The translations under genes and the position numbers were made by a program. This document shows, piece by piece, positions 1,206 through 17,955 of a stretch of DNA of 39,950 bases. This DNA is from Ktedonobacteria bacterium (GTDB lineage: Bacteria; Chloroflexota; Ktedonobacteria; Ktedonobacterales; JACDGC01). The stretch spans positions 1 through 39,950 of the forward strand of contig DAIDHM010000113.1 of NCBI GenBank assembly GCA_027459705.1, read 5' to 3'. The notes beneath the pieces are model-generated. The model worked only from the letters and a program-made list of their open reading frames with translations, had not been told where the DNA came from and did no database searches. Position 1 is the first letter of the stretch. Each line of letters opens with the position of its first letter.

Positions 1206-2324
1206 ATGCCAACCCACATACCAACGTACCAGCGTATCAAAGAAGTTTTACGGACCGAGATCGACAATGGCCATTTTCAACCCCATCAACGCTTTATCAC
1301 GCAGCAAGAAGTGTGTGTACGGTTCGGGGTAAGTCGGATTACCGCTGACCGCGCAATTAACGAATTGGTGAGTGATGGCTTAGTTTACCGGAGACGCGGC
1401 CATGGCACCTACGTATATGCCCAGCCTGTGGCAAGCGCAGTCGACCTTGTGAGAGCCCCCGAGCGGGACACGATTGCCTGTGTCATGAGCTATATCCACA
1501 GTGGCCATTCTCTGGCTTTGATGAAAGGGGTAGAGCGAATGTGTCGCGAAACAGATCACCCTTTCTTGCTTTTTAACTCTGATGAATCTGTCGAGACAGA
1601 GCGTCAGAATGTGCAGCGCGCCCGCGAGGCGGGTGTTTCCGGCCTGATCGTCTATCCGGTGGATGGATTCAACAATGCTGACTATTTTACCGATATTCAA
1701 CACGAAGGAATGCCGATGGTGATGGTCGACCGCTATTATCCTATGATCCCGACCGATATCATCGTACCTGATAATGTCGACGCGGGATACCAAGTCACGC
1801 GCCATCTGCTGGCCCGGGGCCATCGCCATATTGGTGTTCTCTGGTCTGATATCAACTGCACCAGCGTGCAGGAACGTTTAATCGGATATCGTCGTGCTTT
1901 GCAAGAGGCTCAGGTTCCGATCGAGCCCGAACTATCCGCCCTACGCCACTACTATTTCTTACCCGAAACCGACCGCCTAGCGATTCTCAGCCAATGGCGC
2001 TCGCTGGTAGATCCACCAACCGCGATCATTGCTTCCAATGGTCGCGTCATGATGCGCCTTGTGCAAGATTTGATGACCTTGTCGGGTGAGATGGGGGCAG
2101 AGACCACGTTGGCAAACCTGGATAGCACTGACCCCGAAATAATCGTACCCTTTGCCGAGGTCCAGACGCTGTTGCCATCGTTCGCGATGGGCTACCAGGC
2201 GGCACAACTTCTCATCAATCGTCTTGGCGGCCAGGATATTTCCCCACCCCAACATCGCATCATGCCAGTAACTCTCGCTTATCCTTTGCGCTTCATCATC
2301 TCAAGGCCCGCTGCGGTCTCCTGA
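1206..2324 (+). CDS. GntR-family regulator with LacI-type sugar-binding domain
   Basis: The protein has an N-terminal GntR winged helix (about residues 5-72, including FGVSRITADRAINELVSDGL and the RRRGHGTYV wing). A periplasmic-binding-protein-like effector domain of the LacI/GalR type follows from about residue 87 to the end. This fusion is the AraR architecture, in which a sugar ligand releases the repressor from DNA. At 372 residues it is full length for the type. The ATG at 1206 follows a GAAAGGAAAAG ribosome site. It sits directly upstream of, and in the same direction as, the mannosidase/transporter operon, so it most likely controls that operon. A mannose-containing sugar is the expected effector, by inference from context. 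Confidence 0.9.
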   Translation: MPTHIPTYQRIKEVLRTEIDNGHFQPHQRFITQQEVCVRFGVSRITADRAINELVSDGLVYRRRGHGTYVYAQPVASAVDLVRAPERDTIACVMSYIHSGHSLALMKGVERMCRETDHPFLLFNSDESVETERQNVQRAREAGVSGLIVYPVDGFNNADYFTDIQHEGMPMVMVDRYYPMIPTDIIVPDNVDAGYQVTRHLLARGHRHIGVLWSDINCTSVQERLIGYRRALQEAQVPIEPELSALRHYYFLPETDRLAILSQWRSLVDPPTAIIASNGRVMMRLVQDLMTLSGEMGAETTLANLDSTDPEIIVPFAEVQTLLPSFAMGYQAAQLLINRLGGQDISPPQHRIMPVTLAYPLRFIISRPAAVS

Positions 2325-2430
2325 TTGTTCTCGTATGCGTCATTGTTCCACTGCAAAATTCCTGGTCGCGAGCGATGACCAATCCACCGTGTAGAGACAA
2401 TATATGGGTCTGATCAGCAATTCGTGAATA

Positions 2431-2487
2431 TATATGCCATATCATACAGAAAACACTTGCAAATGCCGCGTTTATATGTTATATAAA
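2431..2487 (+). promoter_or_regulatory. Promoter and twin operators of the mannoside operon
   Basis: A -35-like TTGCAA (2457-2462) and a -10-like TATATA (2480-2485) are 17 bases apart. The -10 lies inside a 17-base inverted repeat, TTTATATGTTATATAAA (2471-2487), with 7 bp arms. A second palindrome, ATATGCCATAT (2432-2442), lies upstream of the -35 box. Both contain TATATGYYATA, also seen before the regulator gene, so repression by the GntR protein with a pair of sites is likely. The binding itself is inferred. Confidence 0.55.
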
Positions 2488-2536
2488 GCATATCAATAGC
2501 GCACGAAGCGTAAGCATCGGGAGGCGAGACAGATCT

Positions 2537-5224
2537 ATGGGACCCTACACGATTCTGGTTGTGCCCCATACCCATTGGGATCGCGAATGGTATGTCCCTT
2601 TCGAGGTATTGCGCTTTAGTCTGGTTCGCTTCATGGACGAGTTGATCGCGCAAATGGAAGAAGATCCCGCGCTCCACACATTTCTCCTGGACGGTCAGGT
2701 GATCCTGCTGGAAGATTACCTCGCCATTCGCCCTGAGCAAGCCGCGCGATTACGCACATTGATACAGGCAGAACGGCTGATCATCGGTCCCTGGTACATT
2801 CAACCTGATGAATTCCTCGTCTCGGCGGAATCGTTGGTCCGCAATCTCCTCAAAGGATTACGGTACGGAGCAAGTTTTGGCCCGGTGATGCGGGAAGGAT
2901 ACATCCCCGACACGTTTGGCCACATTGCGCAATTACCGCAGATCTTGCGGGGATTCGGTATCGGCACCTTCTACTTTATGCGCGGACTCGGGGCAGATCT
3001 TGAGGAACTGCGCGCGGAGTTTTGGTGGGAGGCACCGGATGGATCGCGGGTACTTGCCCATTATCTTTCCGAGACGTATTCAAATGCCGCAATTCTCCAC
3101 CCCGATCCCGATCAGATGATGCTCCATCACGGGCAGAATACCCATTATGATTCTTATACGGAATTGCGCGCCAAACTGGCAAAATACAGCAGTGGGTCGA
3201 CACTCCTCTTCATGAATGGAGGGGATCACCTCCTGGCTCAGCCCAACTTTAGTGCGGCAATGCATGGGTTAGAGGACAAGGTGCCTGACCACCTGCACAA
3301 TAGCACCTTAGCGGAATTCGCGCACCAGGTGCTTGCCACGAAACCCAATCTTCACACGCTGCAAGGCGAGCTGCGTTTTGGGCGTTACCATCCAATTCTG
3401 AAAGATGTCCTCTCGACGCGGCTCTACTTGAAACAAGCGAATGCCGCGGCAGAAGCTTTACTTGAAGGTAGGGCGGAACGTTTGGCTACCTTCATGCGAG
3501 TCACCGGGGACGACCACCTGACCGCGTTTCTCCACCATGCCTGGGCGGAATTGTTACGCAATCACCCGCATGATTCCATCTGTGGTTGTTCGGTCGACGC
3601 TGTCCATCGCGAGATGTTGACACGCTTCGCCCATGTCCAGGAAGTCGGCAAGGCGATTATCGAAGATGCCATAGGAACATTGGCAGCGCGAGTTGCGCCG
3701 ATGGTACCCGATGATCAGATACCCATAGTGGTCTTCAATCCTTCCACATGGACGCGCTCTGGTATGGTACAGGTCGCGGTCGCACCTTATCTCCATCTGC
3801 CGCTGGGGCAACGCGTCTATGATTGGGAAAGTCAGGCCACTGCGATTCATCTCGACGACTACGAACTAGTGGATAGTTCCGAGCAACCAGTTGCATGGCG
3901 AAGTGTCGGCACGCAACTGGCCAGCCTGGACGGGCTCCACCGCAGGAAAAACATGCAGCAGGTGCTGATTGATTTCGCTGCGACCAATGTCCCGCCCTTA
4001 GGGTTTCAGGTCTATCGCCTCCAGCCGAAAGCACATTGGAACCTCATGGCGGACAGATCTTCCATTGCCGAGGATAACACAATCGCCAATGAGTTTCTGC
4101 GTGCTACCGCCAGTAGCGATGGCGTGCTTCGTCTGACGGATGTGTCCACAGGCCACGTCTATTCCGGATTACATGTCTTCATTGACGAAGCCGATGCTGG
4201 CGATGAATATACATTTTGTCCATTACCCGCAGGTGACCACATCAGTTCCCGTGGATCACACTGGCAGATCCAAGCGGATCCGGTCAAGAACACGCTCACG
4301 ATTCAAGGAGTACTGCGTTTGCCAATTGGCCTCACTGCGGACCGGACTGCCCGCGCCTCTGTATTGGTAGATTGTCCCATCACGACAACCGTACAGCTTG
4401 TGCAAGGTTCACGAAGGGCCGATATCCACATAACCCTGGAGAATTTGGCGCGTGACCATCGACTACGCGTCCAATGCGCGAGTGGGTTTAGTGAGGTCAC
4501 ACAGTCCATGGCGGAGACGGCCTATGGGGTCATCACGCGGCCAACTACCCCTGAAGCGAGCGTCGGATGGCGCGAACAAACCTCATCGACCTATGCCCAG
4601 AAGCGCTTTGTTTGCATTGAAAGCGCGGGACATGGCCTTGCGATCTTGAATCTCGGATTACCTGAGTATGAGGTCACTCCCGATGGACAGATCGCGCTTA
4701 CCTTGTTGCGGGCGGTGGGATGGCTCTCACGTGATGACCTGACGACACGTCCCGGCGCGGCAGGTCCATCGTTCGCCACCCCTGATGCACAGTGTCTGGG
4801 CGTTCATGAATATGACTACGCCATTATGCCATATCAAGGGACGTGGGCCACGGCCCAGCTGTTTCAGGAAGCTGAAGCGTTTGTCGTTCCCTTCGTGGCT
4901 CAAGCTGTGCAAGGAGTGCGCCAATCACCCAGCAATGGACTCCCCTTCACTTCACTGCTGGCCATTGAACCAGCCGAGATTGTCCTGAGTGCGCTCAAAC
5001 CAGCTGAGGACAATACCGGGATCATCATTCGCGTCTTTAACCCTTTATCAGAGGCGCGAACCGCGACCCTCACGCTTGGCTTCCCAATCCTCAACGCCTG
5101 GTATACCAATCTCAATGAGGAGGCACTGCCTGCGGATGAACAAACCTGCATTGTGACCGAATCCATGATCCACATTTCTTTGCATCCAGGCCAGGTCCGG
5201 ACCATCGCCGTCATGTGGCATTGA
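2537..5224 (+). CDS. Alpha-mannosidase, glycoside hydrolase family 38
   Basis: It hydrolyses terminal alpha-linked mannose by the retaining GH38 mechanism. The zinc and substrate motif HTHWDREWY is at residues 11-19. The expected nucleophile is D125 in GYIPDTFGH. NGGDH is at about 227-231, and the mid-domain signature HPHDSICGCSVDAVH follows at about 343-357. The C-terminal half is the beta-rich mannosidase domain. With 895 residues it is in the usual range for bacterial members. No signal peptide is present, so it acts in the cytoplasm on imported mannosides. GGGAGG lies 12 bases before the ATG. It is the first gene after the regulator and is followed by the binding protein and permeases of a sugar importer. 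Linkage preference cannot be read from sequence. Confidence 0.95.
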   Translation: MGPYTILVVPHTHWDREWYVPFEVLRFSLVRFMDELIAQMEEDPALHTFLLDGQVILLEDYLAIRPEQAARLRTLIQAERLIIGPWYIQPDEFLVSAESLVRNLLKGLRYGASFGPVMREGYIPDTFGHIAQLPQILRGFGIGTFYFMRGLGADLEELRAEFWWEAPDGSRVLAHYLSETYSNAAILHPDPDQMMLHHGQNTHYDSYTELRAKLAKYSSGSTLLFMNGGDHLLAQPNFSAAMHGLEDKVPDHLHNSTLAEFAHQVLATKPNLHTLQGELRFGRYHPILKDVLSTRLYLKQANAAAEALLEGRAERLATFMRVTGDDHLTAFLHHAWAELLRNHPHDSICGCSVDAVHREMLTRFAHVQEVGKAIIEDAIGTLAARVAPMVPDDQIPIVVFNPSTWTRSGMVQVAVAPYLHLPLGQRVYDWESQATAIHLDDYELVDSSEQPVAWRSVGTQLASLDGLHRRKNMQQVLIDFAATNVPPLGFQVYRLQPKAHWNLMADRSSIAEDNTIANEFLRATASSDGVLRLTDVSTGHVYSGLHVFIDEADAGDEYTFCPLPAGDHISSRGSHWQIQADPVKNTLTIQGVLRLPIGLTADRTARASVLVDCPITTTVQLVQGSRRADIHITLENLARDHRLRVQCASGFSEVTQSMAETAYGVITRPTTPEASVGWREQTSSTYAQKRFVCIESAGHGLAILNLGLPEYEVTPDGQIALTLLRAVGWLSRDDLTTRPGAAGPSFATPDAQCLGVHEYDYAIMPYQGTWATAQLFQEAEAFVVPFVAQAVQGVRQSPSNGLPFTSLLAIEPAEIVLSALKPAEDNTGIIIRVFNPLSEARTATLTLGFPILNAWYTNLNEEALPADEQTCIVTESMIHISLHPGQVRTIAVMWH

Positions 5225-5339
5225 TCCAGGGCAGGCTCCAGTCAGAACTGCGCGAAGGCAGCATCGTTGCCATGCTCGCCGCAACGTAAAGCGACCGAGC
5301 ATACGTTCATTGCGAGAGCAGCAAAGGAGCATCGTCGCT

Positions 5340-6662
5340 ATGTATTCATCCTCCAATCTCAGCCGTCGTCAATTGTTGCGTATAGGGGCTGTGAGTGCAT
5401 TGGGTATTGCTGGGGCAGATCTCTTGGCGGCCTGTGGCGGGTCTTCCAGCGCGGGTTCCAGCATTCCTTCCAGCTTCAGCTGGGAAGCGATTCCACCGTA
5501 TTCACTGCAATCAACGGATCCGAAACGCGTCAGCTACATTCAGAGTGCGATTAACGCCTGGCAGCAAGCACATCCCAAGACGACCATTAGCCCCATCGTC
5601 GCATCATCGGATGAGACAGCGGCCAATGCGCGGCTCCTCTCAGAGTTCTCCCAGTCGCGTGGGCCAGATGTGGCGATGATCGATTCATACATCTTTCCTG
5701 ATTTCGCCCAGTTCGCACAGCCAATTGATGCCTATCTCGCGGAGAATGGTCTATCGGTCAACGATTTCTTCCCCTTTGCTCAGAAAGCTATGAAAAATAG
5801 CAAAGGGCAGACGATTGGCCTTCAGTTCACAACCGATGTCCGCTTGATGTTTTATCGCAAAGACCTGGTTCCCACTCCGCCTGCATCGTGGAACGATGTG
5901 TTCACTATCGGTCAACAAGTCAAACAGGCTGGCTATGCCGCCTATCTATTTCCGGCTGGTCGCGGTGAAGCGACCTCGACGACCGGTCTGCTGCCTTATT
6001 ATTGGGCACAAGGGTATGATCTGTATGATGCAAACAATACCCTCCTCATCAAGACCGATCCCGGTAAGACGGCCATGCTGAACGCCTTCCAGTTCATCCA
6101 AAATCTCGTGCAGCAAGGCTTGACCCCAGCACGCGTGACACAGTATAAAGCAGAGTCAGACCTCAATAGTGAGGCCGCTTCCGGAAAAATCGCGATGTTT
6201 TTAGGCGCGAATTTTCAGGTGCCGCAACTGGCGCAGATCATCGGATCGGACAAATTCTTTGCCGAATGGGGTGTCGCACCGATTCCTTCAATGGACGGGA
6301 CCAGTCATGCCACTACGTCTGGCGGATGGATCTGGGCGACTTTCACGAAGGATACCGCCAAGCAACGAGACGCAATCAATTTCGTCAGTGATGCTTTTGT
6401 GAATGACGCAGGTATGGCTGGGTGGTGTAATGTTGGGGGATACCTGCCGACACGCTCCAGCATCTATACTTCATCAGCCTTCACCACCAACCAGTTCACC
6501 ACGACCTTCAGTCAGTATTTGCGCCAATATGCCCACGTGCGGCCAGCAGCGCCGAGCTATCAGGCCCTTACCACCGCGCTACAGGTTGCGGTAGGATCAA
6601 TTGTCTCTGGCAGCCAATCCGCTGCGGATGCGCTGACCACAGTGCTACAGCAGGTGTCATAA
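5340..6662 (+). CDS. Sugar ABC transporter substrate-binding lipoprotein
   Basis: This is the family 1 type of extracellular solute-binding protein that captures sugars for the importer formed by the next two genes. The N terminus carries a twin-arginine motif (SRRQLLR, residues 8-14), a hydrophobic stretch and a lipobox LLAAC with the acylated cysteine at position 32, followed by a Gly/Ser linker. It is therefore probably Tat-exported and lipid-anchored. The mature part has the usual features of the family, for example GKIAMFLGANFQV and SGGWIWATF. I chose the ATG at 5340 because AAAGGAG lies 10 bases upstream; a TTG at 5310 would add ten residues before the Tat motif. Its stop overlaps the next start by one base. 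A mannoside ligand is inferred from context. Confidence 0.92.
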   Translation: MYSSSNLSRRQLLRIGAVSALGIAGADLLAACGGSSSAGSSIPSSFSWEAIPPYSLQSTDPKRVSYIQSAINAWQQAHPKTTISPIVASSDETAANARLLSEFSQSRGPDVAMIDSYIFPDFAQFAQPIDAYLAENGLSVNDFFPFAQKAMKNSKGQTIGLQFTTDVRLMFYRKDLVPTPPASWNDVFTIGQQVKQAGYAAYLFPAGRGEATSTTGLLPYYWAQGYDLYDANNTLLIKTDPGKTAMLNAFQFIQNLVQQGLTPARVTQYKAESDLNSEAASGKIAMFLGANFQVPQLAQIIGSDKFFAEWGVAPIPSMDGTSHATTSGGWIWATFTKDTAKQRDAINFVSDAFVNDAGMAGWCNVGGYLPTRSSIYTSSAFTTNQFTTTFSQYLRQYAHVRPAAPSYQALTTALQVAVGSIVSGSQSAADALTTVLQQVS

Positions 6663-7627
6663 TGGCGCGAATCCCATCTGCAATGACGAGGCTGGCCGAT
6701 GTCGACCAGCCTCCTGCTTCGAATCCCAGGCCACGGTTCGCTTGGGCGAGATTTGGCAATTCTCCGTGGCCATGGCTCTTGCCATTGGCCGTGGTCCTGG
6801 TGTTTGTCTTTCTTTATCCTGTCATTGAGATCATTCGACTCAGTTTTACCAGTGCAACTCTGATCAATGAAAATACTCCTTATACCACTGGTTCCTATGC
6901 GACTATCTGGCACTCGCCAGATTTTATCTCGATGTTGCATGTCACCTTACTCTTCGTCATCTTTAGCGTGGTATTTCAAATGGCATTGGGGTTCGTTATT
7001 GCGCAGATTGTCACGATTGGCCAGCAACGCGGTTTACGTGGTACCGTAGCCACTCGTTCGGCGGTGTTAACCGCGTGGGCTATTCCTGGGGTGATTATCG
7101 GCATCATCTGGAGCTTACTATATCAAGAATCAAGTAGTGGGATTCTCAACTACCTGATTCGTCCGTTCACCCATCATGCAATTCCGTTTCTTTCTCAGCC
7201 ACAAGTCGCCCTGATCTCGTTGACAGTCGCGAATATCTGGCGCGGGACGGCATTCAGTATGATTCTGATATATGCAGGGTTACAGACACTCTCCGCTGAA
7301 GTGACGGAGGCTGCCAAAGTGGATGGTGCGAATGCCTGGCAACGGCTCGTGCGCGTCACTATCCCGCAACTCGCCCCCATGCTATTGCTCAATCTGGTAC
7401 TCATATTAATTGATACTTTTAATACATTTGATATGGTGTTGGCTCTGACAGGTGGTGGTCCTGGTCGCAGTACAGAGGTCATAGCGCTGACCATCTATGA
7501 TCAGATCTTCCAACAACTGAATCTTGGCATCGGGGCGGCCTATGCCGTCGTTCTCCTGACGATTAATCTCGTCATGACAGTAGTATATATTCGTTTGGTC
7601 GAACGTAGCGGACAGGGGAGGGCATGA
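6662..7627 (+). CDS. Sugar ABC transporter permease, UgpA/MalF type
   Basis: This is a MalF/UgpA-type inner-membrane permease with about six transmembrane segments; the first is around residues 38-60, after a Pro-rich cytoplasmic tail. The cytoplasmic EAA loop that docks the ATPase reads EAAKVDGANAWQRLVRVTIP, which matches the consensus EAAxxDGA. At 321 residues it is normal length. Its start overlaps the stop of the binding-protein gene, and its stop overlaps the next start in an ATGA junction, so the three genes are translated together. It carries the substrate released by the binding protein across the membrane. Confidence 0.93.
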   Translation: MARIPSAMTRLADVDQPPASNPRPRFAWARFGNSPWPWLLPLAVVLVFVFLYPVIEIIRLSFTSATLINENTPYTTGSYATIWHSPDFISMLHVTLLFVIFSVVFQMALGFVIAQIVTIGQQRGLRGTVATRSAVLTAWAIPGVIIGIIWSLLYQESSSGILNYLIRPFTHHAIPFLSQPQVALISLTVANIWRGTAFSMILIYAGLQTLSAEVTEAAKVDGANAWQRLVRVTIPQLAPMLLLNLVLILIDTFNTFDMVLALTGGGPGRSTEVIALTIYDQIFQQLNLGIGAAYAVVLLTINLVMTVVYIRLVERSGQGRA

Positions 7628-8469
7628 TGTCTCAAATTTGGCGACAACGTCTTACCGATTGCGCGATTTATCTCGCGTATGCGGTGATTATCATCTTTTT
7701 TCTCTTCCCGGTCTTCTGGGTATTCTCGCTCTCACTGCGCACAGTTCCCGAACTATACGCCTCCCCTCCAATTTGGTTTCCATTGCATCCTCAGTTCCAG
7801 AACTATACGTTCGTCCTGCACCAGACACCAATCGGCGGCTACCTGATCCATTCGTTGATCATTGTCACTGCGACGATTGCGGTGGTTTTGGGGATCGGCA
7901 TCCCGGCCGCCTATGCGCTTTCCCGTTTCAGATTTCGCTTATCACGCTCGGTACTGACGGCCATTCTGGTCTGTCAGATGATCTCGCCTGTGGTGATTGT
8001 CATTCCGCTTTACCACTTTCTGTCGATATTAAACCTTTTGAATAACTATGCCGCACTTATTCTCGTCTATAGCGCGTTGGCGCTCCCGTTCTCCACCTGG
8101 TTTTTGAAAGGCTTTCTGGATGCCGTTCCGCACGAACTCGATGAATCAGCCCAGATCGATGGTTGCAATCGATTCCAGACATTGCGGCGTGTCGTTTTGC
8201 CGCTGGCCATGCCTGGTATTACGTCGGCAGCGATCCTGGTCGCCGTGCTCAGTTGGTCACAGTTTGTGGTCCCGTTTATCCTGGTCGACGATTCGTCGAT
8301 TTATCCCGTAACCGTAGGCTTGGTGAACCTCCAGTCAAACTCTGATGGGATTACCCTGCAATATCTGGCGGCAGGCAGCATGATCGCGATTATCCCAGTG
8401 ATGATCGTCTTTATCTTTTTACAACGATTTATTGTCAGTGGCCTGACAAATGGTGCGGTCAAGGGATAA
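7624..8469 (+). CDS. Sugar ABC transporter permease, UgpE/MalG type
   Basis: This is the second permease of the pair, 281 residues with about six membrane segments. The EAA loop reads ESAQIDGCNRFQTLRRVVLP, followed by the typical LAMPG. It overlaps the previous permease by four bases (ATGA) and is the last gene of the operon. The next gene is the lectin on the opposite strand. No ATP-binding subunit follows, so the importer probably uses a shared MsmK/UgpC-type ATPase encoded elsewhere in the genome, as several carbohydrate importers of this class do. Confidence 0.93.
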   Translation: MMSQIWRQRLTDCAIYLAYAVIIIFFLFPVFWVFSLSLRTVPELYASPPIWFPLHPQFQNYTFVLHQTPIGGYLIHSLIIVTATIAVVLGIGIPAAYALSRFRFRLSRSVLTAILVCQMISPVVIVIPLYHFLSILNLLNNYAALILVYSALALPFSTWFLKGFLDAVPHELDESAQIDGCNRFQTLRRVVLPLAMPGITSAAILVAVLSWSQFVVPFILVDDSSIYPVTVGLVNLQSNSDGITLQYLAAGSMIAIIPVMIVFIFLQRFIVSGLTNGAVKG

Positions 8470-8488: not shown

Positions 8489-8504
8489 TGATCGTTGACG
8501 ATCA
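8489..8504. terminator. Short hairpin between convergent genes
   Basis: TGATCG and CGATCA flank a TTGA loop. The hairpin sits just after the permease stop and overlaps the lectin stop codon on the other strand. The stem is only 6 bp and no T run follows, so a terminator role is weakly supported. Confidence 0.3.
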
Positions 8505-9014
8505 GAACTGATTGGTTGTACCCGAGGCCCAGAGGATATGGTCGCTGGCGCTATAGAGTACCAGGTTTCCATCGTTCTGTACGGCGAGTTGATCACCGGG
8601 ATTCCCTTGTGTCGCGCTGTTCCAGTGCGGGGTCCCACTAATGTCGTAGACGACCAGATTCCCGTCACTCTGAACAGTGACATAGGGGTCCACGATGCCC
8701 ACAGTGTTGCTGGCCCAGAGCGCGATGCCGCTCCCAGCGTCATTGATCTCATAGAGGACAAGGTTTCCATCCGTCTGCATGATCAATTCATCAGCATGAT
8801 TACATGAATAAAGTAGGGGCAGCATATTAGAATAGCCAATGGCAGACAGTTCGCCGCCTGAGGTGAGAAATCCACACGGCGGTGAACTGATGTTCAAAGG
8901 TAATACTTTTGCAGTGCTTGCGAAGATCTGATGCATGTCATGCAGCAGGTCATTCACGTCTTTTATACCCGCGAATTGCAGAATCGCAATGAGGCTCGCA
9001 ATAAGGGATATCAT
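8502..9014 (-). CDS. Bulb-type (mannose-binding) lectin protein, membrane-anchored
   Basis: The C-terminal part (about residues 55-170) is a bulb-type lectin domain, the beta-prism fold of plant mannose-binding lectins. Three sites read QTDGNLVLY, QSDGNLVVY and QNDGNLVLY, each an exact match to the mannose-binding pattern QxDxNxVxY. A hydrophobic stretch near the start (ISLIASLIAILQFAGI) suggests membrane anchoring with the lectin outside. The ATG at 9014 has no good ribosome site. A strong GGGGAGG followed nine bases later by ATG lies at 9084 in another frame, and joins this frame if one A is removed from a seven-A run (minus strand, 9048-9054). The true product may therefore carry about 23 more residues. 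The gene converges on the mannosidase/transporter operon, so a role in binding mannose-rich glycans at the cell surface is likely but inferred. Confidence 0.85.
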   Translation of the reverse strand: MISLIASLIAILQFAGIKDVNDLLHDMHQIFASTAKVLPLNISSPPCGFLTSGGELSAIGYSNMLPLLYSCNHADELIMQTDGNLVLYEINDAGSGIALWASNTVGIVDPYVTVQSDGNLVVYDISGTPHWNSATQGNPGDQLAVQNDGNLVLYSASDHILWASGTTNQF

Positions 9015-9084
9015 TGTGATGGATTGGACCAGGCAACAACCTATCGGTTTTTTTGCGCTGTTTTGTTGACGTGTCCTGTGCCAT

Positions 9085-9830: not shown

Positions 9831-10961
9831 ATGATTGAAGAACCTATCCTCTTGGACTCCCTGATCGCCCCTCTCAACCCACCATTGACGTCCGCCGCAG
9901 ATCCACTGGCGGGCGCAACGGGAGATCGTTCGCGGATGCGCGAGCATACGGATGCCTTCGCGACACTCAAACAGCAGATCAAACAACACGGCTTGCTGGA
10001 AAAACAACTGCCGTTTTATACGTTCATGATCTTGTCGGCGCTGGGTCTCCTGGGCGGGAGTATCGCGATCCTGGCGCTTGTCCACATCTGGTGGGTGCAG
10101 GTGTTGAATGCGGTCGTGCTGGCTTTCCTCTCGACCCAGTTTGGCTTCCTGGGGCATGATGCGGGGCACCGCCAAATTGCGAAATCGACGCGCATCAATG
10201 ATGTGATTGGGCTGTTCCTGGGCAATTTTCTGGTGGGGATGAGCTTCAACTGGTGGTTAGATAAACACAATCGCCACCATAGCAATCCCAACCAACTCGA
10301 TCATGATCCCGATATCAATATCCCGATCCTTGCGTTCTCGGCGGATGATGGGATCCAGCGGACAGGTTTCCAACGTTACATGGTCCGTCACCAGGCGATC
10401 TTCTTCTTCCCTATCCTGATGCTGGTGGCCATTGACCTGCAGGTCAATAGCATCAAGTATGTATTAGCGGGCAAAGCGAAGTATCAGGTGGCGGAAGTGC
10501 TGTTGTTGCTGGCGCACTGGGCATGCTATTTGGGTGCCATCTTCTTGCTCTTGCCCGCCTGGCAGGGCTTGATCTTCATCGCTGTCCATCAGATGCTCTT
10601 TGGTCTCTACCTGGGCACGACCTTCGCGCCTAACCATAAGGGGATGCCGATCATCGCAAGCGAGAGCAAGATGAATTTCCTGCAACAGCAGGTATTGACC
10701 GCGCGCAACGTGCACGCCAATATCTTCAATGATTACTGGTATGGTGGACTGAACTACCAGATCGAACATCATCTCTTCCCCTCACTGCCGCGCAACAAAC
10801 TGAAGCGGGCCCAACGCATCATCCGGCAGTTTTGCGCAGAGCACGAGATTCCCTACTACGAGACCGGGGCGATCCAATCGTTCCGCGAGATCCTGGCGCA
10901 TCTGGCCGAGGTGAGCACCATCGTGACTACTGCGGCACAGACCAATCGGGCTGGCGCATAA
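9831..10961 (+). CDS. Membrane fatty acid desaturase
   Basis: This is a di-iron membrane desaturase that introduces a double bond into an acyl chain (lipid- or CoA-bound). The three histidine boxes are HDAGH (residues 109-113), HNRHH (146-150) and QIEHH (310-314), with hydrophobic segments at about 62-105 and 185-260. Gln as the first residue of the third box is typical of front-end desaturases and of mycobacterial DesA3-like enzymes. No cytochrome b5 domain is fused, so electrons must come from a separate ferredoxin or reductase. I chose the ATG at 9831 because GAGGAG lies nine bases upstream. It appears to be a single-gene unit. Regiospecificity cannot be told. Confidence 0.92.
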   Translation: MIEEPILLDSLIAPLNPPLTSAADPLAGATGDRSRMREHTDAFATLKQQIKQHGLLEKQLPFYTFMILSALGLLGGSIAILALVHIWWVQVLNAVVLAFLSTQFGFLGHDAGHRQIAKSTRINDVIGLFLGNFLVGMSFNWWLDKHNRHHSNPNQLDHDPDINIPILAFSADDGIQRTGFQRYMVRHQAIFFFPILMLVAIDLQVNSIKYVLAGKAKYQVAEVLLLLAHWACYLGAIFLLLPAWQGLIFIAVHQMLFGLYLGTTFAPNHKGMPIIASESKMNFLQQQVLTARNVHANIFNDYWYGGLNYQIEHHLFPSLPRNKLKRAQRIIRQFCAEHEIPYYETGAIQSFREILAHLAEVSTIVTTAAQTNRAGA

Positions 10962-10994
10962 AACGTGAGCCACGCCGGTCACTGGCTGAGTTGG

Positions 10995-11027
10995 GACATC
11001 GCCGCGTCTACCAGACGTGGTGATGTC
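10995..11027 (+). terminator. Hairpin downstream of the desaturase
   Basis: Two 15-base arms (10995-11009 and 11013-11027) pair with two G-U pairs and a three-base ACC loop, 34 bases after the desaturase stop. No T run follows, so termination is plausible but not certain. Confidence 0.45.
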
Positions 11028-11093
11028 GCGATCTGTCCGCTGAAATATGCCACGTGTTAATACATGTCTCTGGTTATGGACATTATGCCTGGA

Positions 11094-11123
11094 TTGATAG
11101 CGGCTCAGCAGTCTTTTTATATT
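11094..11123 (+). promoter_or_regulatory. Candidate promoter of the peptide importer operon
   Basis: TTGATA (11094-11099) and TATATT (11118-11123) are separated by 18 bases in an AT-rich stretch about 100 bases before the binding-protein start. They match the consensus of a housekeeping sigma factor well. AGGAGG at 11203-11208 follows as the ribosome site. Confidence 0.45.
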
Positions 11124-11220
11124 TCAATGATGAGAAATTTATCATGTGAGTTCAGCGTAACCTCATACGTATCCATAATTATGGTCGTCCTTCCAAATTC
11201 TTAGGAGGTACTTACCCTTT

Positions 11221-12880
11221 ATGGCATTTCCTGCCCGTCGCACCATCGTCTCCATGCTGCTCGGCATGGTTGCGCTCCCTTTCAGCCTGTGGCAGCACCA
11301 CGGCGACGAGCGCTGCCCCGAAGCTGGCCGCGAACCAGACCTTGACGTTACCTAACGTCGGGGTCAGCGAGATCAGCACGTTTGATCCCGCCCTCCCCTC
11401 TGATTTGAACTCCGCTGAAGCCATTCAGCTGACTTTCTCCGGCCTGGTAGGTCTCGATCCCAAGACCCTCAATGTGGTCGCGGATATGGCGCAAGACGTT
11501 CCGTCCGTCGCCAACGGTGAGATCACCAACAACGGCTCGACGTATACCTTTAAGCTCAAACCCGGACTAAAATTCTCTGACGGTAACCCCGTCACCGCCA
11601 GCGATTTCGCGTTCTCGATCGATCGTTCGCTGGATCCACGCCTGAAATCTAACGTCGCCACGGTCTACCTCGGCGCCATCAAGGGCGCGATGGACCGCTA
11701 TGCCGGCACCAATGGTGTTACGAGCATCATCGGCACCGGTGTCGTCGTCGTCGATCCTTCTACCCTGCAGATTAACCTGGCGCAACCTGTCGCCTACTTC
11801 CTCGAAGCGATGACCTACTCGACCTCTTTCGCTGTCGAGCAGAGCAACGCCTCTTTCACGAACGCCAAGTGGACCGATAACGCTGTCGGCACTGGCCCCT
11901 TCATGCTGAAAGAGTGGGTACATTCTGACCACATGACCTTCGTCCCGAACCCATACTGGTATGGCGCAAAGTCGAAGATCACCCAGATCACCATGCCGTT
12001 CATCAAGGACACCGAAGTCGCCTACAAGTCCTACAAAGCCAAAGAACTGGATATGGACGGCCTGGGCGCGACCATCACCTCGGCGGACTACGCCGATGCC
12101 AAAGCGCTCCCCAACCACCAGCTCCAGGAAGGCCCTTACCTGGAAACGAACTATGTCTCTCCCAACTGGAACATCGCACCATTCAATAACCAGGCAGTGC
12201 GCCAGGCGTTTGCCTATGCCACTGACCGCGACACGATCGCCAAGACCGTGTTGAAAGATTCGGTGTACTCCACTGACCATATCGTGCCCAACGGTATGCC
12301 AGGATACTTCGCTGGCTTGCAAGGATTGGCATTCAATCCGACCAAAGCCAAGCAGCTACTGACCTCGGTCTATCCAGATCCTACCAAGGTTCCGGCGATC
12401 ACACTGACCTATCCGGACGTCGGTGACAACAAGGCCGTCGCGCTGGAATTGCAGTCGGAATACACGCAGTACCTGGGGGTCACCATCCAATTGAATGGTG
12501 AAGATTTCAACAAGCTCGTCAATGACGTGTACGGCAACAATATCCAGTTCTACATGCTGGCCTGGATCGCAGACTATCCGGACCCGCAGGACTGGCTGTC
12601 GCTGCAGTTCACGAAGAACGCGCCCAACAACACCATGAATTTTAACGACCCCAACTTCGACGCGTTGACCAACAAGGCCGACGTGGAACAAAACCAGGCC
12701 ACCCGCTTCACTGAGTACAATCAGGCGGAAGAGTTGGCCGTGGATGAGGTCGCGTGGATTCCGTTCAGCCAGAACAAGAACACCTATGTGGTGCAACCCT
12801 GGGTGAGTGGCTTCACCGTTGACGCTGGCGGCTTGATCCCCGATAGCGTCTGGGCGAATGTGTACGTAACGCAACACTGA
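11221..12880 (+). CDS. Peptide ABC transporter substrate-binding lipoprotein (family 5), frameshifted in signal peptide
   Basis: This is a DppA/OppA-type binding protein. The mature part is in one long frame from 11270 and has family 5 features: ISTFDPAL near the start, KPGLKFSDGNPVTASDFAFSIDR, VGTGPFMLKEW, and AWIADYPDPQDWL near the end. The best start is the ATG at 11221, 12 bases after AGGAGG, and it encodes a clear signal (MAFPARRTIVSMLLGMVAL), but in another frame. Dropping one C from the CCC at 11277-11279 joins the two parts as VALLSACGS, an ideal lipobox. A TTG at 11270 alone would give a lipoprotein without a usable signal. The gene is therefore either broken by a one-base insertion or affected by a sequence error. 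It leads the importer operon. Confidence 0.88.
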
Positions 12881-12923
12881 GCGCGAATCACTCGCACGAC
12901 AGCGACCAGCACTTTGCGCACCG

Positions 12924-12962
12924 CGCAGACGCGTTGTATGCTTTGCATAGAACGCGTCTGCG
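12924..12962 (+). other. Intra-operon hairpin between binding protein and permease genes
   Basis: Perfect 12-base arms CGCAGACGCGTT and AACGCGTCTGCG enclose a second 5 bp stem with a TTT loop, with one G-G mismatch between the stems, 43 bases after the binding-protein stop. No T run follows. Such structures often protect the upstream message or dampen read-through, which would allow more binding protein than permease. That role is inferred. Confidence 0.55.
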
Positions 12963-13033
12963 ATTGCATTCACGAGGTCACACATCCGCTAGCCATGTCT
13001 TCCACCCACCTCCCCACTCAGAGGAGCACCAGT

Positions 13034-13975
13034 ATGCTGCGATTTTTCCTCCGCCGCTTGATCGGCCTGCTCTTTGTCGTCATTGGCGTCACCTTCGTCA
13101 CCTATGCCATGGGTTATCTCGCCCCCAATCAAGATCCGATCGCGGCGCTCTTAGGTCAACATAATACCCCTCAAGCCTATGCCACCCTGAAGCATGAATA
13201 TGGACTGGATAAACCCTGGTATATCCAATATGGCACGTTCCTGCTGAACCTCGCGCATGGCAATCTGGGTCTCTCCTATCGTTACCCTGGCCAGAGCGTG
13301 AATGATTTTATCGGACCAGCAATCGCCATCTCGATTCAACTCGGCCTCAGTGCGCTGATCCTGGCACTGGTGCTGGGGATTCCCTCTGGCATCATTGCGG
13401 CCCTGCGCGCCAATACCTGGGTTGACACATCTTTAATGAGCGTCATGCTCTTCTTCTATGCGGTGCCCGCCTTTGTGATCATCCCCTTTTATCAAGTCTT
13501 GATCGATATCCTGGTGGCCAATAATTTGCCTACATTGCCCGTTCAGGGGTGGTCCGAGGGCCTCACTTATAAGATTGTGCCAGTGGTCATCCTTGCCTTG
13601 ACCAGCATGGGGTATTTCGCGCGGATCTCGCGAACCGTCATGCTGGAAGTGCTCAGACAAGACTACGTTCGCACCGCGCGTTCGAAGGGTCTCTCCGAAC
13701 GACGGGTGATCTATCTCCACGCCTTCCGCAATGCCCTGCTCCCACTGCTCTCCGTCATCGGCCCATCGCTGGCCTTTTTGGTCAGCGGCGCCTTCGTCAT
13801 CGAGGATCTTTTCAATATCCCCGGTGTGGGCGGCGCCGCGATCCAGGCGGTCGCCAACCGCGATTGGCCGGTCCTACAGGGGACGGTGGTCGTGCTGGCA
13901 GTGGCCGTGGTGATCATGAATATCGTTGTCGACATCCTCTATAGCGTGGCAGATCCACGCATTCGTATACAGTAA
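13034..13975 (+). CDS. Peptide ABC transporter permease, DppB type
   Basis: This is the first permease of the peptide importer. The N terminus MLRFFLRRLIGLLFVVIGVT is the hallmark of DppB/OppB proteins, followed by about six membrane segments. The ATPase-docking loop includes DYVRTARSKGLSERRVIYLHAFRNALLP. The end, NIVVDILYSVADPRIR, is also typical. I chose the ATG at 13034 because GAGGAG lies seven bases upstream; an upstream ATG at 12994 has no ribosome site. The product is 313 residues, normal for the family. It lies between the binding-protein and second permease genes of the same operon. Confidence 0.94.
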   Translation: MLRFFLRRLIGLLFVVIGVTFVTYAMGYLAPNQDPIAALLGQHNTPQAYATLKHEYGLDKPWYIQYGTFLLNLAHGNLGLSYRYPGQSVNDFIGPAIAISIQLGLSALILALVLGIPSGIIAALRANTWVDTSLMSVMLFFYAVPAFVIIPFYQVLIDILVANNLPTLPVQGWSEGLTYKIVPVVILALTSMGYFARISRTVMLEVLRQDYVRTARSKGLSERRVIYLHAFRNALLPLLSVIGPSLAFLVSGAFVIEDLFNIPGVGGAAIQAVANRDWPVLQGTVVVLAVAVVIMNIVVDILYSVADPRIRIQ

Positions 13976-14006
13976 GCGCGGATTGTTCGCTCAAGAGGAG
14001 AGTCTC

Positions 14007-15035
14007 ATGGATACCGATCGTTACCTGGAACCGGACACTGCCCCCACCCAGCTCACGCAGGAATACCTCATGGAAGAGTCGTTAGAGCCGGGTTTGCATT
14101 CTACCTCGCCCTGGCGCGACTCGTTTCGCCGCTTCCTGCGCGATAAGCGGGCAGTGGGCGCCCTGGTGCTGCTTGCCATCTTTATCCTGGCGTCGCTTTT
14201 TCTATTGCCGATCTACGAGCATATCGGGCCGGTGATCAGCGAACGCCATGGCTTCGTCCACATTGGACCCGCCAAGTACCACTCCCCGACCTATGTCGAT
14301 AATCTGGTTGAGAATGCCCCAGCGTCTTCGCTCCACTGGTTAGGCACCAACTACGCTGGTCAGGATATCTTCGCGCGGTTACTGGCGGGCATTCAGGTCT
14401 CGCTCTTCGTCGCCGTCATTGTGGTCGGTGTCATGGACGTCGGGTTGGGAATCATCTTCGGCGTCCTCGCTGGCTACTATGGCGGCATCCTGGATACCTT
14501 GCTGGCGCGATTCACCGACCTGATCTTCGCGTTCCCGGGCCTCCTCTTCGCTGTACTGGTGACGGGACTCTTCCGTCAAGCGGCACTCGACAGGTTCGGC
14601 AATGACGGGCCGCTCTACCTGGTCGCGATTACGCTGGGTCTGACGATCTGGCCGCAGATGGCGCGCTATGTCCGCGGTCAGACGCTGTCGCTGAAAGAGC
14701 AACAGTTCATTGAGGCCTCGCGCACCATCGGGACTTCCTCGAATCAGATCATCCTGCGGCATATTTTGCCGAACATCCTCAGCCTGATCTTCGTTGCCGC
14801 CACCCTGGACATCTCCGGTACGATTATCAACGAAGGCGTCTTGAGCTTGATCGGCCTGGGGGTGCAGGCACCGGGATCGAGCCTCGGTCTCATGATTCAG
14901 GAATCGCTCGCTAATATTCCATATTTCCCGATGGAGGCGATCTTGCCATCGTTGACGCTGACGATCATCGTGTTGGCGTTCTCGTTCATCGGCGACGGAC
15001 TGCGCGATGCCTTTGATCCGCGCAGCAAAGATTAA
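14007..15035 (+). CDS. Peptide ABC transporter permease, DppC type
   Basis: This is the second permease. It has a cytoplasmic tail of about 45 residues, then a DppC/OppC membrane domain with the preserved docking loop (EQQFIEASRTIGTSSNQIILRHILPN) and the C-terminal signature FSFIGDGLRDAFDPRSK. The periplasmic loop holds the HWLGTNYAGQDIFARLL motif common to DppC proteins. The ATG at 14007 follows AAGAGGAG by six bases and gives 342 residues, a little longer than many homologues because of the tail. It starts 31 bases after the DppB-type gene and is followed 18 bases later by the first ATPase. Confidence 0.94.
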   Translation: MDTDRYLEPDTAPTQLTQEYLMEESLEPGLHSTSPWRDSFRRFLRDKRAVGALVLLAIFILASLFLLPIYEHIGPVISERHGFVHIGPAKYHSPTYVDNLVENAPASSLHWLGTNYAGQDIFARLLAGIQVSLFVAVIVVGVMDVGLGIIFGVLAGYYGGILDTLLARFTDLIFAFPGLLFAVLVTGLFRQAALDRFGNDGPLYLVAITLGLTIWPQMARYVRGQTLSLKEQQFIEASRTIGTSSNQIILRHILPNILSLIFVAATLDISGTIINEGVLSLIGLGVQAPGSSLGLMIQESLANIPYFPMEAILPSLTLTIIVLAFSFIGDGLRDAFDPRSKD

Positions 15036-15053
15036 CCAGTGGAACGAGGAATT

Positions 15054-16022
15054 ATGACAGATTTACTGACCGTACGCGACCTGCATACGACATTTCATAC
15101 GCGTGCTGGCGACGTGCCAGCCGTGAATGGAGTCAGCTTCACAATGCGCGAGGGTGAGACACTGGGGATCGTAGGGGAGAGTGGCAGTGGCAAGAGCGTC
15201 ACGGCACTCTCGATCATGCGCCTCTTGCCAACACCGCCCGCTGAGATTACTGGGCAGGAAGTCTTGTTTGCCGGGCAAGACCTGCTGGAAATGAGTCAAG
15301 ATCAATTGCGCGCCCTGCGTGGCAACAAGATGGCGATGATCTTCCAGGATCCGATGACGTCGCTCAACCCCGTCTTCAAGGTCGGCTTCCAGATCGCGGA
15401 ATCTGTCCGGATGCATATGAATCTGGGTCCGCGCGATTCCTGGAACCGTGCCGTGGAGATGCTCGACAAGGTCGGCATCCCCAATGCCGCGCGTCGCGCC
15501 AACGATTATCCGCATGAATTCTCTGGCGGCATGCGTCAGCGCGTCATGATTGCGATCGCCCTCTCATGTAATCCTTCCCTGCTGATCGCTGACGAACCGA
15601 CGACCGCGCTGGATGTGACAATCCAGGCGCAGATCCTCGAATTAATGCGGGCGCTCTCCAAGGAATTTCAGACAGCGGTGATGTTGATTACGCATGACCT
15701 TGGCGTGATTGCGGGGATGGCGCAACAGGTGCTGGTGATGTATGCTGGTCGCCTGGTGGAAGCGACCGATACGCGTACTCTCTTCGCCAAACCCGCCCAT
15801 CCGTACACCCAGGCGCTGCTACACTCGATTCCACGGATGGACGATGCGCAGAACGAACGCCTGCAACCGATCACCGGGCAGCCGCCCGATCTCTTGAAGA
15901 TGCCGGTGGGATGTTCGTTCGCGCCACGCTGCCCGAAAGCGCAAGCGCGGTGTCAGCGCGAGACGCCGCCCCTGGTCGAGGTAGGCGCGGGTCAGCGGGC
16001 CGCGTGCTTCTTTCCGTATTGA
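15054..16022 (+). CDS. Peptide ABC transporter ATPase, DppD type
   Basis: This is one of two ATPases that power the importer. Walker A GESGSGKS is at 41-48, the Q-loop FQDP at about 97-100, the signature FSGGMRQR at 156-163 and Walker B LLIADEP at 176-182. The C-terminal oligopeptide-transporter extension has the Cys pattern [15 protein letters not shown]. In related DppD proteins such a cysteine cluster has been reported to bind an iron-sulfur centre. The ATG at 15054 has GAGGA four bases upstream; a GTG at 15039 is a possible alternative. The product is 322 residues. Confidence 0.94.
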
Positions 16023-16042
16023 GTTTCGAGAGGTACGAGACA

Positions 16043-17065
16043 ATGGCAGATGAGACGATGCTGGCCACCAGCATGACGACCGACGCGCTCCTCGATGTCC
16101 AGGATTTAAAAGTCTATTTTCCCATGACTGGCGGGCTGCTGCAACGCGGTGGCGCCGTGCGCGCGGTGGACGGGGTGAATTTTACTATTCGACGCGGGGA
16201 GACGCTGGGATTGGTAGGCGAGAGTGGCTGTGGCAAATCGACAACGGGCCGCGCCATTCTGCAATTGATCCCCGTCACAGGCGGCAAGGTGATCTTTAAT
16301 GGGATGGATATCACCAAGCTCTCCCCCAAAGCCGTGCGCCAGAAACGCGCTGAGATGCAGATGGTCTTCCAGGACCCTTTCAGTTCACTCGATCCGCGCT
16401 ATACTGTCGCGCAGATCATCGGCGAGCCATTGGTGAATTTCAAGCGCGGCAATAATCGCGAGATCGACCAGCGCATCCGCGAATTGCTCTCGACCGTCGG
16501 CCTGCCGACCAATTCGTTGAATCGCTATCCCCATGAATTCTCTGGCGGGCAGCGCCAACGCGTGGGCCTGGCGCGCGCCCTGGCGCTGAATCCAAGCCTG
16601 TTGATCGCTGATGAGCCGGTCTCGGCGCTGGATGTCTCAGTGCAAGCGCAGGTGCTGAATCTGATGGAAGACCTGCAGCAGAAACTGGGACTGGCGTACC
16701 TCTTCATCTCGCATAATCTCTCGGTCGTACGCCACATCAGCCAGCGTGTGGCGGTCATGTATCTGGGGCGCATCGTCGAGATTACGGCGAGCCGCCAACT
16801 TTATGCTCAGCCGCTCCATCCCTACACCAAAGCGCTGCTTTCGGCAATCCCGATGCCGGATCCTGTGCTGGAGGCTACGCGCCAGCGCATCGTTCTCGCC
16901 GGTGACCTCCCCAGCCCGGTGGCGCCGCCCAGCGGTTGTCATTTCCATCCGCGCTGCCCACGGGCACAGGCACTGGGGAATCCCGAACGCTGTCGACAGG
17001 AATCGCCCACATTGACGATGGCGACGCTAGATCATGCGGTCGCCTGCCACTTTCCGGAGGCTTGA
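16043..17065 (+). CDS. Peptide ABC transporter ATPase, DppF type
   Basis: This is the second ATPase of the importer and forms the heterodimer with the DppD-type subunit. Walker A GESGCGKS is at 59-66, the Q-loop [11 protein letters not shown] at about 109-119, the signature FSGGQRQR at 166-173 and Walker B LLIADEP at 186-192. The C-terminal extension contains the [11 protein letters not shown] Cys motif. I chose the ATG at 16043 because GAGAGGT lies about nine bases upstream and it follows the previous stop by 20 bases. It has 340 residues. The DUF1028 gene follows two bases after its stop, which suggests one mRNA. Confidence 0.94.
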
Positions 17066-17067
17066 GC

Positions 17068-17955
17068 ATGCGCCAGACTCTCCCCACCCATCCGTTGGTG
17101 GCAACCTTCTCGATCGTGGGACGCGACGCGCGGACGGGCGACCTGGGAGTTGCCGTGCAATCAAAGTTCCTGGCGGTCGGCGCGGTCGTCCCCTGGGCGC
17201 GGGCTGGGGTGGGCGCCGTCGCCACCCAGGCTCTGGCCAATACGGACTACGGCCCGCAGGGCTTGAGTTTGCTGGCAGCTGGCCTACCGCCAGCGACTGT
17301 GCTGGCGCGGATGATGGAGGCCGATGACCTGGCCACGCAGCGTCAGGTGGGCATCGTCGATGCCCAGGGAGCCCACGCGACCTACACCGGCAGTGACTGC
17401 TTTGATTGGGCAGGAGGCCAGTCTGGACCCGACTTCGCCGCTCAGGGCAATATCCTGGCTGGCCCGGCTGTCGTGGCTGCCCTGGCGGAGGTGTTCGTGG
17501 CCAACGCGAGGCTGCCGCTCTGGGATCGTCTGTTGCTGGCACTCACGGCGGCGCAAGCCGCCGGCGGCGATCGGCGCGGTCGGCAATCGGCGGCGTTGCT
17601 CGTGGTGCGCGCGGGTGGTGGCTATGCCGGCCATAATGATCGCTTTATCGATCTGCGCGTGGATGATCATCCTGATCCGATTCCCGAGTTAATTCGGTTG
17701 TTAGACCTGCATAAACTTTATCTCTTCCCCTCCGATCCCGCCGATCTTCGTCCCATCACCACGGAGCTGGCCAGCGAGATCCAGACCAGGTTGATCGCGA
17801 CCGGCGATCTCGCGTCACCCCCCAGTGGTCAGTGGGATGCCGCGACCCAGCGAGCGATGGAGGCGTTCGTCGGGCGCGAGAATCTGGAAGAACGCTGGAA
17901 ACATCCAGGCCAGATCGATCAGGTGGTTCTGGATTTCCTGCGGCGCGCCCGCTGA
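17068..17955 (+). CDS. DUF1028 family, Ntn-hydrolase-like protein
   Basis: Residues 10 to about 205 match the DUF1028 family: ATFSIVGRD, LGVAVQSKFLAVGAVVPWARAGVGAVATQA, YGPQGLSLLAAG and RQVGIVDAQG. The family is placed in the Ntn-hydrolase superfamily, which cleaves amide bonds, but its substrate is not established. The last 70 residues (SGQWDAATQRAMEAFVGRENLEERW) look like the small peptidoglycan-binding-like domain often found at the end of this family. The ATG at 17068 follows GGAGG by seven bases and is two bases after the DppF-type stop, so it is probably the last gene of the peptide importer operon. Cleavage of an imported peptide or amide is a reasonable guess. No signal peptide is seen. 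Confidence 0.9.
   Translation: MRQTLPTHPLVATFSIVGRDARTGDLGVAVQSKFLAVGAVVPWARAGVGAVATQALANTDYGPQGLSLLAAGLPPATVLARMMEADDLATQRQVGIVDAQGAHATYTGSDCFDWAGGQSGPDFAAQGNILAGPAVVAALAEVFVANARLPLWDRLLLALTAAQAAGGDRRGRQSAALLVVRAGGGYAGHNDRFIDLRVDDHPDPIPELIRLLDLHKLYLFPSDPADLRPITTELASEIQTRLIATGDLASPPSGQWDAATQRAMEAFVGRENLEERWKHPGQIDQVVLDFLRRAR

Follow-up and report, generated by a model that had tools for sequence, protein, structure and literature searches.

Where one gene is read in two frames, the question is whether the break belongs to the organism or to its sequence. We addressed it for a peptide-binding lipoprotein gene in a window of 39,950 nucleotides –the whole stretch of DNA analysed– from a Ktedonobacteria bacterium. 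In the sequence as given, a frame break near codons 11-19 leaves the type II signal peptide in one frame and the mature protein in the next (Table 1).

The frame and signal peptide

The frame that starts at ATG 11221 reads MAFPARRTIVSMLLGMVALPFSLWQHHG... and includes two arginines and a run of hydrophobic residues. The cysteine codon of the lipobox (TGT 11288-11290) lies one base off relative to this frame, and the mature frame is open from a TGA at 11147-11149 through the end of the gene without any internal stop. The main description given by an earlier, sequence-only reading was thus confirmed: the signal that follows AGGAGG and ATG 11221 ends out of frame, the lipobox and an intact mature protein continue in the next frame, and joining both frames yields a standard lipoprotein signal.

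No start codon in 11140-11300 provided a lipoprotein signal with the sequence left unaltered. The sole ATG, GTG, or TTG in the mature frame ahead of the lipobox cysteine is TTG 11270, which gives a protein beginning MRSLSACGSTT..., without a hydrophobic stretch. Only when the two frames were joined did the mature protein gain an in-frame type II signal peptide. Eight of the 27 codons tried as joining points, from about 11254 to 11278, produced an acceptable signal; the two best joins ended in ...LLSACGS and ...SLSACGS, and the joined signal measured 23 residues to the cysteine. The sequence-only reading had proposed the removal of one C from the CCC at 11277-11279, which precedes a TTT at 11280-11282. 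That join does give a lipoprotein signal, but with eight joins giving a signal that very base cannot be named as the culprit.

Across 302 kb of the genome, a lipoprotein signal obtained solely through a +1 join was present at six of 544 sites with a Shine-Dalgarno sequence and an ATG. The 11221 site was among the six and had the longest downstream open stretch (534 codons), which makes it more than a chance arrangement. Two further +1 joins that lead into long frames, at L051 9429 (386 codons) and L050 6638 (267 codons), presented weaker signals.

Table 1. Features around the frame break and along the importer operon (positions in the window)
Feature	Position	Strand	Remarks
Shine-Dalgarno-like AGGAGG	11203..11208	+	12-nt spacer, then ATG 11221
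44-codon frame with lipoprotein-type signal peptide at its start	11221..11355	+	TAA 11353-11355 comes before any lipobox in frame
One-base frame displacement	11254..11280	+	Exact base not determinable from sequence; signal-giving joins at about 11254-11278
Open frame with lipobox and intact mature family 5 solute-binding protein (OppA/DppE-like)	11270..12880	+	PF00496, 5.7e-75
Strong intergenic hairpin, after the binding-protein gene and before permease 1	12924..12962	+	12+5 pairs; z -3.64 for 12881-13032
Permease 1 (DppB/OppB-like)	13034..13975	+	PF00528, PF19300
Permease 2 (DppC/OppC-like)	13926..15035	+	PF00528, PF12911; ORF as listed, start not settled
ATPase 1 (DppD/OppD-like)	15039..16022	+	PF00005, PF08352
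ATPase 2 (DppF/OppF-like)	15911..17065	+	PF00005, PF08352; ORF as listed, start not settled

The binding protein and its importer operon

The SBP_bac_5 profile matched over the mature domain (253 bits, profile positions 3-365 of 368), and the best solved relatives of the mature protein were DppE (8ay0), a murein peptide-binding protein (3o9p), and OppA (8are). Downstream, PF00528 occurs twice and PF00005 together with PF08352 –the oligopeptide C-terminal domain– occurs twice, and the remainder of the operon is intact, as the sequence-only reading held. Its predicted domains and its neighbors mark this as an ordinary gene for an oligopeptide/dipeptide-binding lipoprotein, heading an opp/dpp-type ABC importer operon. 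It shares with the other family 5 lipoproteins (PF00496; OppA, DppE, MppA) the full-length match, the lipobox cysteine, and the permease-permease-ATPase-ATPase operon, and it differs from them in that, in this sequence, signal peptide and mature protein are out of register by one base. We found no close paralog in its own genome, where the next best match covered part of the protein at 33% identity.

Directly after the ATPase genes comes a DUF1028 protein (16936-17955) that carries a peptidoglycan-binding domain at its C terminus and is possibly a peptide-processing enzyme of the importer operon.

The hairpin that follows the binding-protein gene could set the ratio of binding-protein to permease expression. 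The five nearest loci (L034, L033, L006, L007, and L008) also carry strong 50-nt hairpins after the binding-protein gene, of different sequence and with energies from -25.8 to -36.4 kcal/mol; in L034, L033, L006, and L007 a same-strand permease comes next. Rfam gave no matches in the window, and a promoter and terminator scan of 10900-13100 detected nothing above chance.

Elsewhere in the window, at 1206-8469, a family 38 alpha-mannosidase adjoins a second ABC importer with two permeases, behind a GntR-type regulator with a sugar-binding domain. The lipoprotein of the second importer (5310-6662) has an intact signal and no Pfam match at 0.001.

The sequence-only reading had counted a lectin gene (8502-9084, minus strand) as another shifted frame. 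The frame of its GGGGAGG and ATG 9084 does leave the lectin frame, around an A7 run (plus strand 9048-9054). At 9014, ahead of a hydrophobic stretch, there is also an ATG that belongs to the lectin frame itself. Lectin matches were present in five of 60 other genomes, all starting at residue 47 or later, so that the relatives are uninformative on that start. Grouping the lectin and the binding protein as two homopolymer-linked shifts is weak, since a three-C run is no hotspot: runs of at least three make up 12.7% of the bases in the window.

Comparison with related genomes

The protein search returned matches in 59 of 61 genomes, its own included. For 29 of the 58 matching genomes other than the source, we examined the best locus; L035, which matched at 28% and comes from a record named Acidobacteria, does not count among them. 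A scan of genome contigs gave three loci, two of which duplicate matches of genomes G003 and G005 and were counted once. The start, the hydrophobic stretch, and the lipobox were in frame with the mature protein at every one of the 29 loci, and none of them had the frame break. In L007, for instance, the translation has a proper signal ending in LLAACG. The two closest orthologs, with 75% identity, presented an in-frame signal of 22 residues to the cysteine, and the AAGAGG ahead of the ortholog start in L004/L005 aligns with the AGGAGG of the window. A close ortholog was present in four of the five other genomes of the family; the fifth (G001, 80% complete) had distant matches only. Among the genomes compared, the genus is represented by the source genome alone.

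At the level of constraint, identity to the ortholog was 75% for the binding protein, 72% for the neighboring permease, and 69% for the following permease/ATPase region. Unique amino-acid changes in the binding protein numbered 40 on the branch of the window versus 27 on that of the ortholog (457 columns), against 22 versus 17 in the permease (185 columns). Together with the lack of stops in the mature frame, these counts reveal neither the further decay nor the relaxed constraint of a pseudogene; from the alignments, constraint looks normal, with no clear sign of relaxation.

Assembly quality

A Viterbi scan based on codon usage was run over 301,868 bases of the source genome (the window plus 20 stretches). 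It detected 35 same-strand frame switches, 33 of which were ordinary gene junctions by rule and two were flagged. Both were rejected as broken genes: one sits within 180 bases of the start of a contig, and in the other the gene reaches its own stop shortly before the next ATG. The comparison genome G003 gave 37 switches, six of them flagged. With no convincing mid-gene frameshift found, the sampled assembly is free of a general indel problem. When one-base shifts were planted, the scan recovered 100 of 120 in mid-gene and two of 120 at 30-60 bases from the gene start. Since it is blind near gene starts, it says little on the 11221 site.

We also searched for broken genes with tblastx, comparing 302 kb of the genome with loci of other genomes totaling about 458 kb, and just 22 kb of the query was covered. 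The coordinates of the six candidate pairs span junctions of neighboring operon genes, so the search is uninformative. A paper on Illumina indels (PMC3334598) carries no weight here.

Discussion

We infer that the break is a one-off in this sequence and not a biological device. Translation might instead begin at TTG 11270 or at some other start in that frame, making a protein without a signal or one made by an unusual route, and the frame, open from 11150, does contain that TTG. This is improbable. TTG 11270 failed the signal test, having no hydrophobic stretch before the cysteine, and by eye there is no apparent Shine-Dalgarno site ahead of it. An unexported family 5 binding protein would not serve its importer. 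In the relatives, the start aligns with ATG 11221.

A functional break, whether programmed ribosomal frameshifting or slippage-driven phase variation, has in its favor that both parts of the gene, signal and mature protein, are undamaged. We consider it very improbable, because the break is absent from the 29 relatives' loci examined and there is no long homopolymer. Neither a long homopolymer nor a short tandem repeat marks the break, where the CCC and TTT fall short of the length that phase variation needs, and conservation of a break with a slippery site is contradicted by the in-frame signal at all 29 loci. By eye, the join holds no stop or rare-codon slippery site of a known kind. Slimmer still is the chance that a lineage-specific +1 recoding inside the signal peptide yields an exported binding protein despite the break; if it did, export of the receptor would be coupled to translational conditions.

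The choice is then the one that the sequence-only reading had framed correctly, between a gene just lost and an indel in the assembly, and an isolated error accounts for the observations about as well as a very recent mutation does. We slightly favor an error, in base calling or in assembly, with a probability of roughly 0.5. Such an error would put one base out of place in the sequence of a functional lipoprotein gene. We lean this way because the operon and the gene are otherwise intact, because no close paralog could act as a backup, and because of the work of Antonov et al. 2013 (PMC3711429), where singleton genes with frame transitions were assigned to sequencing errors or recent indel mutations. 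Like those GeneTack fs-genes singletons, this gene is split over two frames, with a break absent from the relatives examined. There is no difference in kind; the shift here is near the gene start, where the codon-usage scan is blind. Against an error stands the three-C run, which is not a typical error site, and the sampled genome is not error-ridden, no flagged switch having held up in 302 kb.

This last point also supports a genuine one-base mutation that recently silenced the binding protein in the strain or population, with decay not yet begun: in a sampled assembly without a general excess of frameshifts, there is no need to invoke an error. A very young pseudogene would also be expected to look undecayed; the extinction of bacterial pseudogenes is the subject of PMC2916853. 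We regard a recent mutation as a serious possibility, somewhat short of an even chance. Against it stand the otherwise intact operon, the normal-looking constraint on the gene, and the lack of a close paralog in the genome that could take over.

Whether by error or by mutation, the frame break is ordinary. For annotation, automatic start calling would probably choose TTG 11270 and so hide the out-of-frame lipoprotein signal. For the organism, an error would mean that the gene simply works, whereas a real break would leave the importer without its own exported receptor.
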